DNA of 28,430 bases from a virus. A model generated the notes under the pieces. That model was not told where the DNA came from. It did no database searches and saw nothing but the letters and a program-made list of their open reading frames with translations. The stretch covers positions 1 through 28,430 of IMG/VR virus record IMGVR_UViG_3300022591_000053. The stretch is one strand, 5' to 3'. Made by a program: the position numbers and the translations under genes. This document shows positions 12,476 through 21,304 of this stretch, piece after piece; positions within the stretch are counted from its first letter, which is position 1, and each line of letters begins with the position of its first letter.

Positions 12476-12994
12476 ATGTTTGCACAAGTAATTAACGGTA
12501 TTATTATTCAGCTAATTGCTGCTGGTTCAGAGTTTACTTATGAAGATGTTACATATCCTTCTAACTGGATTCAGCTTGCTACGCCTGAAGAAAAAGCTCA
12601 ATTAGGTATTGTTGATGTAGTTTATGGTACAGCTTTAAACGACCAATACTATTGGGTTAGCGCAGATGCTCCTGTATATAACGAACAAACTAATCAAGTA
12701 GATATTAACTTTACTTGCACAGCTAAAGACCTGCCTGGCGTTCAATCTACAGCTACAAGCCAAGTAAATTCACAGGCTTACAGCACTTTATTGCCTAGCG
12801 ATTGGATGGTAGTTCAGCAAATTGAAAATGGTACACAAGTACCTGCTGAATGGAACGCATGGAGGCAGTCTGTACGCAATACTACAAAAACTGCTGTAGA
12901 TGCTATTGCTGCTGCAACTAACGTAGATCAAGTTGCTTTGGCTGTAGATAACTGTAAGTTTTTACCTGATCCAAACGCTCCTACTCAAGAATAA
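12476..12994 (+). CDS. Tail fibre assembly-type protein
   Basis: A 172-residue protein. The C-terminal half includes LLPSDWMVVQQIENGTQVP and AEWNAWRQSVR, a signature of small proteins encoded just after fibre genes and often classed as fibre-assembly chaperones or DUF4376-like. The N-terminal part (MFAQVINGIIIQLIAAGSEF) suits a small beta domain. The position immediately after the large fibre gene supports a role in its folding or attachment, though a minor virion component is also possible. AGGAA precedes the ATG, and the stop overlaps the next start by one base. Confidence 0.7.
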   Translation: MFAQVINGIIIQLIAAGSEFTYEDVTYPSNWIQLATPEEKAQLGIVDVVYGTALNDQYYWVSADAPVYNEQTNQVDINFTCTAKDLPGVQSTATSQVNSQAYSTLLPSDWMVVQQIENGTQVPAEWNAWRQSVRNTTKTAVDAIAAATNVDQVALAVDNCKFLPDPNAPTQE

Positions 12995-13785
12995 TGTTAG
13001 GGTTTAACCCATTATCGTCAGCGCCAATATCAGACCTTGGCGCATTAGAGGTCATTACTGGGTATATATCCACTACTGATTCTAATGATACGGCTACGCT
13101 TAATGCAACTGCATTGCAGCCTACAGGTACTATAAGCGCAACTGACGGTACGGATACTGCCATTATTACGGCAGCAGACATTGTTTCAGGAAATATATCA
13201 GCTACAGACGGCACAGATACAGCCACTATTAACGGCATAGTAACTGCTGGAACTATTACAGGCGATATAAACGCTACAGATGGTAACGATACAGCTAATT
13301 TACAAGGCGTAGTAACAAGTGGTGCAGATACCCATGATGCTATAACTGCTGACGAATATCGTAGAGCTAAAGCCCTTGATAAACGCATACATAAGGCAGA
13401 ACAAAAGCGTATTGCTGCTGTTAAAGCCCAGGCTGCTAGACGTAGACAGCGCTTTATTGACTCGTTATACCCAGATCAAAAAGCCCCTGATTCATTTTAT
13501 GATCCTCAAAACTTTGACGAACAAGGCAATTTTGTTGCACCGCAAATACTTGATAAAGCACAAAAAGCCAAGATTAAAGTCATCAAGAAAAAGATTCTTA
13601 GCGAAGCTGACCAAGCGGCTATCTATGAGCGTGAAATTGAAAAACTACGCCAAGAACAGCAATTAATAATTCAATCCATTGAAGCAAAAGTTAGACTTGC
13701 TAATTTGCAAATGCAATTGGCAATTATTGAAGCCCAGCGATTAGCTGAATTAGACGATGAGGAAGCACTATTAGCACTCCTATAA
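12994..13785 (+). CDS. Structural protein with tandem Ig-like-style repeats and C-terminal coiled coil
   Basis: The 263-residue protein has two very different halves. Residues about 23-110 carry four repeats of the type GNISATDGTDTATI, each about 21-24 residues, resembling beta-strand repeats of adhesins. Residues about 118-263 are strongly helical, basic then mixed charge, with a likely coiled coil (about 205-255, REIEKLRQEQQLIIQSIEAK). No family is recognised with confidence. A fibre-associated or capsid-surface protein is a reasonable inference from repeat style and neighbours. Its last codons overlap the proposed ATT start of the glycosyltransferase gene. Confidence 0.7.
   Translation: MLGFNPLSSAPISDLGALEVITGYISTTDSNDTATLNATALQPTGTISATDGTDTAIITAADIVSGNISATDGTDTATINGIVTAGTITGDINATDGNDTANLQGVVTSGADTHDAITADEYRRAKALDKRIHKAEQKRIAAVKAQAARRRQRFIDSLYPDQKAPDSFYDPQNFDEQGNFVAPQILDKAQKAKIKVIKKKILSEADQAAIYEREIEKLRQEQQLIIQSIEAKVRLANLQMQLAIIEAQRLAELDDEEALLALL
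13060..13320 (+). repeat. Four tandem coding repeats (63-72 bases each)
   Basis: Units begin at 13060, 13126, 13189 and 13261 and encode GYISTTDSNDTATL, GTISATDGTDTAII, GNISATDGTDTATI and GDINATDGNDTANL. Third-base changes between units show the repeat is maintained at protein level. Confidence 0.75.
13759..13763 (+). promoter_or_regulatory. Ribosome binding site in front of a proposed ATT start
   Basis: GAGGA lies six bases before ATT 13770, within the end of the upstream gene. No ATG, GTG, TTG or CTG occurs in this frame between the stop at 13758-13760 and ATG 13977. Confidence 0.5.
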
Positions 13786-14678
13786 ACCCACACGCAGAAT
13801 ATAAAAGAGCCTACGAGCATCTACACGCTGGTCGTTATGATGCAGGTTTTAGATTATTTGAATACCGGTGGCACAAAGAAGTTCTTGCCAATCAAATAAC
13901 ACCTTATACCCAAAAACCTCCAAAGCCTGCTGTATGGCGTGGTGAATCTCTTTTAGATAAATCTATTGTTATTCAGATGGAACAAGGATTTGGCGACATA
14001 TTTATGTTTGCTAGGTTCTTGCCATTCCTAAAGGTTATGGGCGCTAAAAAGGTAGTCTTATTGACTCAAGGCTCATTACTAGGTGTTTTAGGGCAATTTG
14101 AATGTATAGATGTATTGACTAACCAACCAGAATGTCCTGATGTAACTGAATGTGACTACTGGATTGGCAATATGAGCCTTCCTTACTATATTGCTTGTGC
14201 CACGCCCTATGCAAAATCATTGTTTCCAATAACCACTAAAAAGATAGTTGGTTCAGAAGGCTATATGTATGCAAAACCTTCTAATATTGAACCAAAAATA
14301 GGGGTAAATTGGGCTGCTAGTCGCAACATCCTTTTCCATATTAAGTCTATTCCTGACCACAAAATGTATGAACTTGTAGGTGATAATTGTTATTCTTTAT
14401 CACCTGAACACAATGGCTTTTTCCATCCTTTGCCTGATGATGGCTGGAAAACAGATTGGAGAATCACAGCAAGCCACATGAAGGCTATGAAGGGCATAGT
14501 GACAGTAGATACAGGAACGGCTCATTTAGCAGGCGCATTGGGCGTTAAAACCATTGTATTGTTGCCAAAAGAGGAATACATTTGTTGGCGTTGGAAAAAT
14601 GGTAGCTGGTATGATTCAGTTGTTGCATTGCGTCAAGAAGAATATGATCGTGTACCAGAATTAATAAGGAGAATGTAA
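13770..14678 (+). CDS. TPR-linked glycosyltransferase (GT9/heptosyltransferase-like), probable ATT start
   Basis: From ATT 13770 the product is 302 residues and begins MSTPINPHAEYKRAYEHLHA, followed by GRYDAGFRLFEYRW, a TPR-like helix pair found before this enzyme type. Then come KSIVIQMEQGFGDIFMFARF (first nucleotide-sugar fold) and VDTGTAHLAGALGV (246-259, donor-side motif), with a final WRWKNGSWYDS segment usual in TPR-linked GT9-like proteins. Starting at the first ATG (13977) would delete 69 residues including family-typical sequence. A -1 frameshift from the preceding gene is the alternative, but no slippery heptamer is visible. Likely activity is sugar transfer to a virion protein or host surface glycan. 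It ends in a TAATG junction. Confidence 0.75.
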   Translation: MSTPINPHAEYKRAYEHLHAGRYDAGFRLFEYRWHKEVLANQITPYTQKPPKPAVWRGESLLDKSIVIQMEQGFGDIFMFARFLPFLKVMGAKKVVLLTQGSLLGVLGQFECIDVLTNQPECPDVTECDYWIGNMSLPYYIACATPYAKSLFPITTKKIVGSEGYMYAKPSNIEPKIGVNWAASRNILFHIKSIPDHKMYELVGDNCYSLSPEHNGFFHPLPDDGWKTDWRITASHMKAMKGIVTVDTGTAHLAGALGVKTIVLLPKEEYICWRWKNGSWYDSVVALRQEEYDRVPELIRRM

Positions 14679-15055
14679 TGGTTTGCCCCCAATGTGGCTA
14701 TTCTGAAGGAAATCATGTTTCTAAAAAGTTATCTGATAAAGAATATTTCTTAGAGATTTGGACACCAACAATAGGCGAAGAAGAAGCGCTTAAATCATGG
14801 GAAGAAAAGCAAAAAGCCCCACGTCAAATGACGCACATGGTTCAATCTGACATTGCTGGCTATGTAAGCCAAGTAGATGGCTCTTGGATTGACAGCCGTT
14901 CTAAGCATAGAAATCACCTAAAACAGCACAGAATGATTGAATTAGGAAATGACGTTCCTACGGCCCATAAACCTATTGAATTTGACCGTAAGACCAATGA
15001 AAAAAGAAAGCAGCAAATCGCAGAGTTAGCTTACGCAAAACTCAATTATAGATAA
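14678..15055 (+). CDS. Zinc-ribbon-like conserved phage protein
   Basis: A 125-residue protein beginning MVCPQCGYSEGN. The single CPQCG at residues 3-7 could bind a metal, but a second Cys pair is missing, so a complete zinc ribbon is not evident. The central segment (DIAGYVSQVDGSWIDSRSKH, then HLKQHRMIELGND) is a pattern seen in phage proteins placed between portal and capsid genes. Function is unknown; a morphogenesis role fits the location. It is coupled to the glycosyltransferase gene by a one-base overlap and followed by the scaffold. Confidence 0.72.
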   Translation: MVCPQCGYSEGNHVSKKLSDKEYFLEIWTPTIGEEEALKSWEEKQKAPRQMTHMVQSDIAGYVSQVDGSWIDSRSKHRNHLKQHRMIELGNDVPTAHKPIEFDRKTNEKRKQQIAELAYAKLNYR

Positions 15056-16161: not shown

Positions 16162-17142
16162 ATGGCATTTGCTAACTCAGCAATCACCGATATTATCGCT
16201 ACCACGATTCAAAGTCGTAGCGGTGAATTGGCTGACAACTTAACACAAAACAACGCAATCCTACAAAGATTGAACTCTAAAGGTAATGTACGCAGTTTCT
16301 CAGGCGGTAACGTAATTCTTGAAGAAATCATGTACAACGATCCAAATACTAATAACGCTAATTCTTATAGCGGTTACGAAGTATTGAACATTTCTCCAGA
16401 TAGCCCTATTTCTGCTGCTCAGTACAAGATTTCACAGTACGCTGACTCAGTAACTATGTCTGGTCTAGAAATGTTGCAAAACAGCTCTAAAGAAGCAATC
16501 ATTGACCTTTTAGATGGTCGTATGCAAGTTTCTGAAGCTCGTTTGCTTAACCGTATTTCTGGTGACTTGTACCTTGACGGTACTGGTAACGGTGGTAAGA
16601 ACTTGGATGGTTTGGCTGCTGCTGTTTCAGCTACTCCTACTACAGGTACTTATGGTGGTATTAACCGTGCTAACTGGACTTTCTGGCAGAACGTAGCTAC
16701 AACTGGTACAACTATTACTAGCTCAAACATTTTGGCTAAAATGACTTCTACAGCTATTCAATTAGTTCGTGGAACAGATAAAGCTGACTTGATTGTTGCT
16801 GATAATAACTTCTACTCTTTGTATGTTCAGTCTTTGCAAGCTATCCAACGTATCGCTTCTGAAGAAGCCGGTGCTGCTGGTTTTGCTTCATTGAAGTTCT
16901 ATGGTGGTGGTACATCTGCTGATGTGGTACTAGGTGGTGGTTATGGCTCACAAGCTCCTGCAAATACTATGTATTTCTTGAACACCAACTACATCTTCTT
17001 CCGCCCTCACAAAGAGCGTAATTTTGTACCTATTGGTGGTGAGCGTCAGTCTATTAACCAAGACGCTATTGTTAAGCTGTATGGCTGGGCTGGTAACTTG
17101 ACAACAAGTAACTCATTCCTCCAAGGCATCTTGACTAACTAA
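16162..17142 (+). CDS. Major capsid protein
   Basis: The 326-residue protein is the expected size for an HK97-fold coat subunit of the BPP-1/Bcep22 type of podovirus. Supporting features are the N-terminal helix (MAFANSAITDIIATTIQSRS), an E-loop-like region (FSGGNVILEEIMYND), a long helix region (LLDGRMQVSEARLLNRISGD) with an Asp and Gly-rich turn, and a C-terminal segment containing RPHKERNFVPIGGERQSINQ. Codon choice is more restricted than in neighbours, with frequent GCT, GGT and ACT, as is common for a highly expressed gene. AAGGA at 16149-16153 lies eight bases before the ATG. It follows the scaffold by 38 bases. Confidence 0.9.
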   Translation: MAFANSAITDIIATTIQSRSGELADNLTQNNAILQRLNSKGNVRSFSGGNVILEEIMYNDPNTNNANSYSGYEVLNISPDSPISAAQYKISQYADSVTMSGLEMLQNSSKEAIIDLLDGRMQVSEARLLNRISGDLYLDGTGNGGKNLDGLAAAVSATPTTGTYGGINRANWTFWQNVATTGTTITSSNILAKMTSTAIQLVRGTDKADLIVADNNFYSLYVQSLQAIQRIASEEAGAAGFASLKFYGGGTSADVVLGGGYGSQAPANTMYFLNTNYIFFRPHKERNFVPIGGERQSINQDAIVKLYGWAGNLTTSNSFLQGILTN

Positions 17143-19115: not shown

Positions 19116-20876
19116 ATGGCAGTAGCAAAGAAGTTTACTGCTAAGACTTCCTCTTTGCCATCACCTATTGGTGGATGGAACGCTAGAGATTCGTTAGCAG
19201 AAATGGCTGCTACAGACGCAGTAACGCTAACTAACTGGTTTCCTACTCCTACTGACGTAACCCTTAGAAAAGGTTATACAAAGTATTCCACAGGCATTAC
19301 AGGTGATGTTAATAGTTTAATGAACTATGCTGGGCCATCAAGTCAAACCTTATTTGCTGCTGCTGGATCAAACATTTATAACTGTAATACTTCTACAGCA
19401 TCTGTAGTTGCTTCAGGGCTTACAAACTCTAAATTTCAGCACGTTAATATCACTACGCCAGGCGGAAGCTTTCTTGTAGCTTGTAATGGTGCTGATGCCG
19501 TACAAATTTATGATGGTACTAATTGGTTTAAAGTAGCCACGACTACTACAGCTCAGACCATTAGTTCTATTACCAATTCAACTACTACTGCAACACTTAC
19601 AACAGCTTCTGCACATGGTTTAGTAACGGGTAATAGAGTTACTATTTCAGGTGCTACAGCAGCCGCTTATAACGGCACTTTTGTTATTACAGTAACTGGA
19701 ACTACAACCTTTACATACACAATGTTAAGCAATCCTGGCGGATCTGCTTCTGTAGTAGGTACATATTCAGTTATTGGTATTACTGGCGTAAACAGTAACA
19801 CATTTGTTAATGTGAATTTGTTTAAAAATAGACTGTATTTCACTCAAATTAATACCCTTAAATGCTGGTATTTAGATGTTAATTCTATTGGTGGTGCTGC
19901 CAATCCGCTTGATTTTGGTTCTATTGCTCGTAATGGTGGCTTTTTGCAAGCCATGGGTACATGGACACTTGATGCTGGTCAAGGTGCTGACGATTACGCA
20001 GTATTTGTAACCAATATGGGCGAAGTTATCGTTTATAACGGTACAGATCCTACTAGTTCAACTACATGGGCTTTAAAAGGCGTTTGGCAACTAGGTCAAA
20101 CCTTTAATCGTAGATGCTTCTTTAAATGGTCTGGGGATCTTTTATTACTTACTCAAGACGGTCTTGTGCCTTTGGCTTCTGCATTGCAATCTAGCCGTTT
20201 AGATCCTAGGGTAAACCTTACAGATAAGATTTACTTTGCTGTTTCTTTAGCAGCATCTAATTATTATGATAATTTTGGCTGGCAAGTTAATTACTTTGCT
20301 GCTGAAAATATGCTCATTTTGAACATTCCAATTAGTGGTGGAACACAGCAATATGTAATGCACACCATTACAAAATCATGGGCTAACTTTACCGGCATTA
20401 ATGCCAATTGCTTTGAAACATCAGGCAAAGCAGGTATGTATTTTGGTTCAAATGGCTTTGTAGGCAAGTTTTATGATGGTTTATCTGACGCTGGCAATAA
20501 CATTACTGCCACATCTCAGCAAGCATATAGCTATTTTGATACACCAGGACAGTTAAAACGCTACACAATGGTTCGCCCTATTCTTCAGTCTAGCGGTGGT
20601 ATTCCAGGCGTTTTAGTAGGTCTAAGCGTGGATTTTGACACCGTAAGCCAATTAGGAGCTGTTTCGTTCAATCCAGGCAATGCTAGTACAGGTAGCTGGG
20701 ATTCTGCCGTATGGGATACGGCTGTATGGGCTGGTGGCCTAGTTACTACAAAAATATGGCAAGGTGTTACAGGCATTGGATTTGCAGCATCTATTAACCT
20801 TAATGTTGCATCGCAAAACATTGAATTGCATTGGGCATCAACCGATTATGTAATGGAAGCAGGTGGTGTTCTTTGA
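19116..20876 (+). CDS. Tail nozzle / packaged-DNA stabilisation-type structural protein
   Basis: The 586-residue protein begins MAVAKKFTAKTSSLPSPIGG followed by WNARDSLAEM, a start seen in a large group of podovirus structural proteins encoded after the adaptor. The middle contains many short beta repeats and WxxxW-like blades (TWALKGVWQLGQTFNRRCFF; GDLLLLTQDGLVPL), which suggests a propeller-like fold, as in P22 gp10 and T7 gp12. A Thr-rich insertion at about 150-215 looks like an Ig-like or fibre-type domain. The likely role is closing the tail tube and retaining DNA. It overlaps the GNAT start by four bases. Confidence 0.72.
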   Translation: MAVAKKFTAKTSSLPSPIGGWNARDSLAEMAATDAVTLTNWFPTPTDVTLRKGYTKYSTGITGDVNSLMNYAGPSSQTLFAAAGSNIYNCNTSTASVVASGLTNSKFQHVNITTPGGSFLVACNGADAVQIYDGTNWFKVATTTTAQTISSITNSTTTATLTTASAHGLVTGNRVTISGATAAAYNGTFVITVTGTTTFTYTMLSNPGGSASVVGTYSVIGITGVNSNTFVNVNLFKNRLYFTQINTLKCWYLDVNSIGGAANPLDFGSIARNGGFLQAMGTWTLDAGQGADDYAVFVTNMGEVIVYNGTDPTSSTTWALKGVWQLGQTFNRRCFFKWSGDLLLLTQDGLVPLASALQSSRLDPRVNLTDKIYFAVSLAASNYYDNFGWQVNYFAAENMLILNIPISGGTQQYVMHTITKSWANFTGINANCFETSGKAGMYFGSNGFVGKFYDGLSDAGNNITATSQQAYSYFDTPGQLKRYTMVRPILQSSGGIPGVLVGLSVDFDTVSQLGAVSFNPGNASTGSWDSAVWDTAVWAGGLVTTKIWQGVTGIGFAASINLNVASQNIELHWASTDYVMEAGGVL

Positions 20877-21304
20877 TTGTTTTTGATAATCAAGAATATC
20901 TATTTGAATGGGCTAGTAAAAGGTTAGATTTACCGTCACAGGCGGCATATTGTATTGGTAACGTAATAGATGATGAACTTAGGGCTGTAGTGGTTTATTG
21001 TGGTTTGGCTGGTAAATCGTGCCAAATCCATATAGCTTCTGAGGGAAGTCATTGGATGAGTAAAGATTTATTATGGGTGGCTTTTGATTACCCTTTTAAT
21101 AAATTGGGACTAAAGGTTATAATAGGCACAATTGCAGGGAATAATGAAAAATCCCTTAGATTGAGCCGACACCTTGGTTTCCAAGAAATAGCAACAATCC
21201 CTGACGCACATGACGAAGGGGATTTAGTGATTTTTGGGATGCGACCTGAGTTTTGTAAATACTTAAAACTTAACGCATCATTAAAGAAACAATTAGGAGT
21301 TTGA
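20873..21304 (+). CDS. GNAT-family acetyltransferase
   Basis: A 143-residue protein with the GNAT core: a central strand region (DLLWVAFDYPFNKLGLKVII), then GTIAGNNEKSLRLSRHLGF (85-103), where the Asn and LGF elements are typical of the acetyl-CoA pocket. GNAT enzymes move an acetyl group from acetyl-CoA to an amine on a protein or small molecule; the substrate cannot be told here. Acetyltransferases of this kind recur between tail and ejection genes in podoviruses. The start is TTG 20873, overlapping the upstream stop (TTGA) with AGGTGG six bases before; the longer frame from 20831 would lie inside the preceding gene and adds no GNAT sequence. Confidence 0.82.
   Translation: MIVFDNQEYLFEWASKRLDLPSQAAYCIGNVIDDELRAVVVYCGLAGKSCQIHIASEGSHWMSKDLLWVAFDYPFNKLGLKVIIGTIAGNNEKSLRLSRHLGFQEIATIPDAHDEGDLVIFGMRPEFCKYLKLNASLKKQLGV

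Follow-up and report, generated by a model that had tools for sequence, protein, structure and literature searches.

The putative glycosyltransferase (GT) gene of an uncultivated tailed phage very probably initiates at an AUU codon, position 13770 of the window, with a GAGG Shine-Dalgarno (SD) sequence placed inside the upstream gene, and comparison of related loci suggests that this start arose through a single relocation from an ATGA overlap. The window is the whole stretch of DNA that was analysed, a 28.4 kb virus record (28,430 nt) attributed to a tailed phage by its terminase, portal, major head and tail-protein profiles; its relatives make up a large family of uncultivated viruses of bacteria, mostly from freshwater. 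The GT gene is located between an upstream repeat-rich gene (12994-13785) and the run of genes that leads up to the one for the major head protein (16162-17142). As the upstream gene ends at the TAA at 13783-13785, it shares 16 nt with the GT gene, in frames that differ by -1. The features on which the argument relies are as follows.

12994..13785, + strand: upstream gene, an open reading frame (ORF); repeat-containing and probably tail-fibre-associated, with a charged C-terminal part and the end LDDEEALLALL
13759..13762, + strand: Shine-Dalgarno sequence GAGG, within the upstream gene and 7 nt before the ATT
13769..13773, + strand: pentamer TATTA around the start codon; TATTA in 179 of 180 relatives and TATTT in one, with the same pentamer in E. 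coli infC
13770..13772, + strand: predicted ATT start codon of the GT gene; ATT in 180/180 overlap-type relatives
13770..14678, + strand: GT gene, 302 aa, with its TAA stop at 14676-14678
13782..13784, + strand: ATA codon aligned with the ATG that starts the GT gene in the sister clade (ATGA overlap)
13783..13785, + strand: TAA stop of the upstream gene, as read in the window sequence
14678..15055, + strand: next gene; its ATG overlaps the GT stop (TAATG) and its protein begins MVCPQCGYSEG

The GT frame is open from 13761, immediately after an in-frame TGA at 13758-13760, and its earliest ATG, GTG or TTG is the ATG at 13977 (Met70), 69 codons from the ATT, with no in-frame CTG before Met70. 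The first-pass annotation had stated that no ATG, GTG, TTG or CTG lies between this TGA and ATG 13977 and that GAGGA stands six bases before ATT 13770; the sequence reads exactly so, with GAGGA at 13759-13763 and seven bases between GAGG itself and the ATT. Its proposal that the gene starts at the ATT is supported by the conserved codon, the conserved GAGG, an ATG in one relative displaced out of the overlap (L062) and the canonical start of a sister clade. RNA structure at the start gave a z-score of -0.17 with no notable difference in accessibility, and no stable or conserved structure was found there, so that regulation beyond the weak codon is unsupported. Among the matches listed, homology extends well ahead of the first canonical start in none of the other conserved + strand genes of the window, and the GT gene appears to be the only such ATT-start case in the window. 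The upstream gene has no match in Pfam or PHROG, and its fibre role is thus inferred from position and repeats; the C-terminal tail of its protein, DDEE..LLLL, is kept across relatives. Elsewhere in the window, a metallophosphoesterase gene occupies the - strand at 1810-2799 amid plus-strand genes, and in the ORF at 20831-21304 the first TTG seems too early, with the homology of several relatives beginning about 18 codons in and the true start probably further downstream.

Relatives were gathered from IMG/VR by related-locus searches, an unbiased DNA motif scan and whole records, and all of them are metagenomic contigs without a known host. The 238 non-redundant loci comprise 180 with the ATT and no nearby canonical start, 47 with a canonical start, seven with both, one with neither and three that are cut off. 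The locus with neither (L080) is a rearranged contig from which the usual upstream gene has been lost and in which no start codon is evident. None of the 180 ATT-class relatives has an ATG, GTG or TTG 18 or more codons ahead of the conserved GF motif, and in all of them ATT stands at the codon homologous to 13770. The possibility that a sequencing error had removed a real upstream ATG fails in the face of 180 distinct sequences with ATT. Every ATT-clade relative keeping the overlap has the codon, and on this comparative evidence the ATT is neither chance nor a sequencing error. In the L102 record, the GT gene is in two overlapping pieces in different frames, from a frameshift or an assembly error.

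Conservation extends to the immediate context of the codon. The tetramer TATT is found in 180/180 of these relatives, followed by A in 179 and by T in one (L147), so that A(+4) is not strictly required. GAGG is present in 175 of the 180, at 7 nt from the ATT in 152 and at 4 nt in 23, and the other five have GAGA. Glu codons in the window are GAA in 292 instances vs GAG in 85, and the 23 sequences with GAA first place GAG one codon later, which indicates that the SD is kept by codon choice. Annotated phage records gave just distant TPR-GT9 matches (25-28% identity) and no near match, and there is thus no annotated relative with a known host. The genome contigs searched returned distant or fragmentary matches alone (Ramlibacter, Rhodobacter and a Mucilaginibacter contig), from which no host is inferred, and the homologue in marine virus AG-345-E08 is too distant for placing its start.

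Within the upstream frame, the A of the ATT is a third codon position and the TT are positions one and two of a Leu codon. Across the third positions of the upstream gene from -48 to +22, substitutions mapped on a 153-gene tree number 0 at both the A of the ATT and A(+4) and 5-38 at each of the remaining 22 of the 24 third positions examined. The tree set was defined by TATTA; this choice cannot explain the invariance because merely four complete loci were omitted at that stage (L141 with TATTA, L147 with TATTT, L062 with ATG, and L080). Under random synonymous recoding of the upstream gene, ATT survives in 26% and ATTA in 16% of cases, with the observed contexts at 93/93, and the anti-SD duplex energy is -6.05 as observed vs an average of -2.57 for the recodings. 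As counterpoints, T(-1) taken by itself can be accounted for by the hydrophobic tail of the upstream protein, and A(+4) also fits a preference for Thr, Ser, Asn or Ile as the second residue.

The sister clade (L321 and relatives) has the same gene order and upstream tail (LDDEES.LMLL), and its GT starts at an ATG overlapping the upstream stop (TTATGACACC). The junction in this clade reads CTTTTATGACACC with upstream stop TGA, and that of the window reads CTCCTATAAACCC with stop TAA; the sister ATG aligns gap-free, codon for codon, with the window ATA at 13782, 12 nt (four codons) from the ATT. Among sister-type junctions the upstream stop is TGA, forming ATGA, in 35/35, with GAGG in 7/35 and TATTA in 6/35. 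In the ATT clade (n=180) the stop is TAA in 136, TAG in 44 and TGA in 0, and the codon at the position of the sister's ATG is TTA in 65, GTA in 54, ATA in 40 and CTA in 21. The differences between the clades are significant in Fisher tests that were not corrected for relatedness. In the absence of the ATGA start the ATT and GAGG are fixed; in its presence they vary freely, with CTATTA, CTACTA and ATACTG found in the sister clade at the ATT-equivalent position. In members further removed, the start is GTGA (L294) or ATG (L333).

The same comparison bears on whether ribosomes might instead reinitiate at the NTA codon overlapping the upstream stop, the window's ATA 13782 and homologue of the sister ATG. 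Such reinitiation would use the very position of the sister-clade start, and weak initiation at ATA is known from infC and ccpN of S. aureus (PMC13009471). However, the codon is not conserved in the ATT clade, whereas the ATT and GAGG are, and the conserved GAGG lies about 19 nt upstream, too far to serve it; reinitiation at this codon is considered very unlikely.

In the protein tree, the ATT loci form one clade (SH-aLRT 99) with L062 nested within as ATG, representing one loss of the ATT. Since the tree is rooted by a very distant sequence, the direction of the start change is likely but unproven. The GT gene of L062 is displaced about 40 nt beyond the upstream stop, out of the overlap, and there ATG occupies the same codon as the ATT elsewhere in the clade (ATG AGT TCT AAC TTA AAT vs ATT AGC TCT AAT ACT TTA AAT in L052). 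A 13-codon ORF (GTG ACT ACT ... GAG TTC TAA) with its own good SD, AAGGAG, precedes the GT gene at 1356-1400 of L062; its end is overlapped by the GT ATG and it looks like a coupling leader. L062 also belongs to a subgroup with L295, L372, L438 and L448 that has a common motif after the upstream stop (TAAAGGAGAA.GCG...) and a GT ATG further downstream, and it seems that in L062 an ATT-clade GT gene was received into an L295-type context by recombination.

A -1 ribosomal frameshift from the upstream gene would yield a fibre-glycosyltransferase fusion with no independent GT start. The geometry permits it: relative to the upstream gene the GT frame lies at -1, and since it is open from 13761, slippage anywhere from there to 13785 would fuse the two genes. 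The earlier annotation had raised this fusion while seeing no slippery heptamer, an absence that extends to the relatives, as an X XXY YYZ heptamer occurs in 0/153 of them. Frameshifting needs neither a conserved GAGG nor an invariant ATT, and L062 and the sister clade have separate ATG-started genes, so that this route is regarded as highly unlikely.

Initiation could also take place at the third-frame ATG 13757, either followed by a shift of +1 into the GT frame or as a mini-ORF feeding reinitiation at the ATT. An ATG is found at -13 or -16 in 179/180 relatives; nevertheless, L141 is without it and keeps the ATT and GAGG, the ATG follows from conserved Asp-Asp-Glu codons with GAT making up 74% of Asp codons, no slip site is apparent, and the mini-ORF ends at a TAG adjoining the ATT in one subgroup only. 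Use of this ATG is judged extremely unlikely. As an observation on the codon itself, ATG 13757-13759 overlaps the GT-frame TGA (GATGA), which probably reflects nothing more than the Asp-Asp-Glu codons, although GACGAC was never observed there.

A start at Met70 (13977), which would leave the preceding 69 codons out of the protein, has in its favour that it is the first canonical start codon in frame and that Met70 is invariant in a 39-member alignment, and is virtually ruled out by purifying selection on codons 12-68, by the structural elements that the 69 codons encode and by canonical-start relatives, which begin at the N-terminus and not at Met70. Pairwise dN/dS over codons 12-68 has a median of 0.10 (1,409 pairs), with variation mostly at third positions, and by this measure the stretch before Met70 is coding and under purifying selection. 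An AlphaFold2 model built from 39 relatives (pLDDT 89.8) places a TPR-like helix pair at residues 7-34 and the first Rossmann strand of a GT-B fold at 65-69. As both precede Met70 in the model, a protein started at 13977 would lack the helix pair and that strand. The first-pass annotation had described these codons as typical of TPR-linked glycosyltransferases; homologues beginning at the equivalent of 13977 would have refuted its proposal, and none does, with Met70 falling just behind the first Rossmann strand.

The GT protein passes the Pfam cut-off for Glyco_transf_9 (PF01075) narrowly, with 23.6 bits vs 22 over a short stretch (234-267); L294 also passes, and L062 and L321 do not. A PDB sequence profile search gave no match. 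Foldseek searches with the model retrieved WaaC, TibC and a GT9 of Veillonella, and the best PDB matches (WaaC, TibC and 3tov) are distant, with E 1.5e-5, TM of about 0.5 and 10-14% identity. The model is thus that of a putative GT-B, GT9-like fold, closest, though distantly, to the family GT9 heptosyltransferases, with transfer activity inferred. The mature N-terminus is probably (M)STPINPHAEYK, where Met as the first residue is inferred, and GT produced from the native junction is expected to begin with STPINPHAEYK or MSTPINPHAEYK. Gene callers limited to ATG, GTG and TTG would trim 12-70 residues from the GT in the ATT clade. Among public viral models, the nearest (A0A6J7WM20) has a length of only 250 aa and aligns over 249 columns, as a truncation of this kind might produce.

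In the proposed mechanism, initiation at AUU 13770 would most likely be by fMet-tRNA; in the absence of expression data, initiation in vivo is inferred. The GAGG 7 nt upstream would position the 30S subunit at the AUU, where fMet-tRNA would pair with A1 and U2 and tolerate U3 with the aid of the SD, as deduced from known AUU starts; the initiator tRNA loop may pair additionally with U(-1) and A(+4). Because the start is inside the last codons of the upstream gene, GT initiation is inferred to be probably also coupled to upstream translation. Historically, the ancestor would have used the ATGA overlap, which the sister clade retains, until the upstream stop changed from TGA to TAA or TAG and destroyed the overlapping ATG (to ATA in the window); initiation would then have shifted by 12-15 nt in the upstream direction, to a pre-existing ATT within two Leu codons, reinforced by GAGG. 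The ATT may not have become ATG because ATG followed by A reads TGA in the upstream frame, which would cut off the conserved hydrophobic tail of the upstream protein. The overlap may in this way lock in the ATT, a suggestion that depends on a codon-table argument and one natural exception (L062).

A weak start would keep the amount of enzyme far below that of the structural proteins of the same operon, the yield being inferred; with the gene placed among structural genes, such a low dose is a plausible, likewise inferred, benefit. An AUU start should also make the GT sensitive to IF3, by inference from infC, sigR and cvfC1. A more far-reaching interpretation, which remains doubtful, is that the conserved UAUUA constitutes a recognition rule for AUU starts and that the clade evolved a stable GAGG-N7-UAUUA module fixing a low enzyme dose. 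Pairing of U(-1) with A37 and of A(+4) with U33 in the initiator tRNA loop would then offset the U-C mismatch at the third base, and, if the rule is true, an AUU module can evolve inside another gene, within a structural-protein operon.

The relocated AUU start can be set against several known systems. The E. coli infC gene, encoding IF3, resembles the GT in its AUU start, purine-rich SD and identical pentamer TATTA (ggTATTAaag); it is a bacterial gene under autogenous IF3 control, whereas the phage gene encodes an enzyme, lies in an overlap and is without known feedback. In E. coli pcnB the AUU is likewise preceded by U (ctATTttt; TATTT) with GAGG upstream, but this gene is bacterial, is not inside an overlapping upstream gene and has T at +4. 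Phage T4 gene 26 contains an internal AUU start and thus shares AUU initiation in a phage. There, however, the AUU is the internal start of a shorter product, in one gene of one phage, whereas the GT, a separate gene, would have it as its only start throughout a clade; a literature search for phage AUU starts found none beyond the systems compared here. The ATGA start/stop overlaps of polycistronic phage genes, represented by the sister clade, have the same gene pair, upstream tail and translational overlap as the ATT clade and differ in having the ATG on the upstream TGA stop, with GAGG and TATTA not conserved.

In Staphylococcus, the AUU of cvfC1 and the AUA of ccpN are natural starts of host genes that were shown experimentally and have an extended SD (PMC13009471), and S. 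aureus AUU and AUA starts give about 10% of the AUG reporter yield in poor medium (PMC13009471). The GT shares with them a conserved non-canonical start and a conserved SD, but has a plain GAGG and comparative evidence only, as opposed to an extended SD and experiment. In Streptomyces, the GTC start of sigR is repressed by IF3 and the weak start keeps the product low (PMC5472188). AUU and AUA starts are disfavoured by IF3 (PMC5472188; PMC10158994). Like the GT, sigR has a conserved weak start misannotated by gene callers; unlike the GT, its start is GTC rather than ATT and its function, in the ratio of sigma to anti-sigma, is known.

Natural AUU starts described in bacteria are few, and the searched literature shows no clade-wide phage case. 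The ATG sister clade, the displaced ATG member and the 180 variants in which ATT and GAGG alone are held fixed act as natural controls, which makes the ATT clade a ready test bed for AUU function, its persistence and the constraint that overlap places on starts. AUU starts as such are already known (infC, pcnB, cvfC1), as is a conserved AUU with a conserved SD in Staphylococcus; what appears to be new is an AUU that serves a phage gene of its own as the only start, is kept throughout a clade and lies inside an overlapping gene, with its apparent relocation from ATGA visible in relatives.
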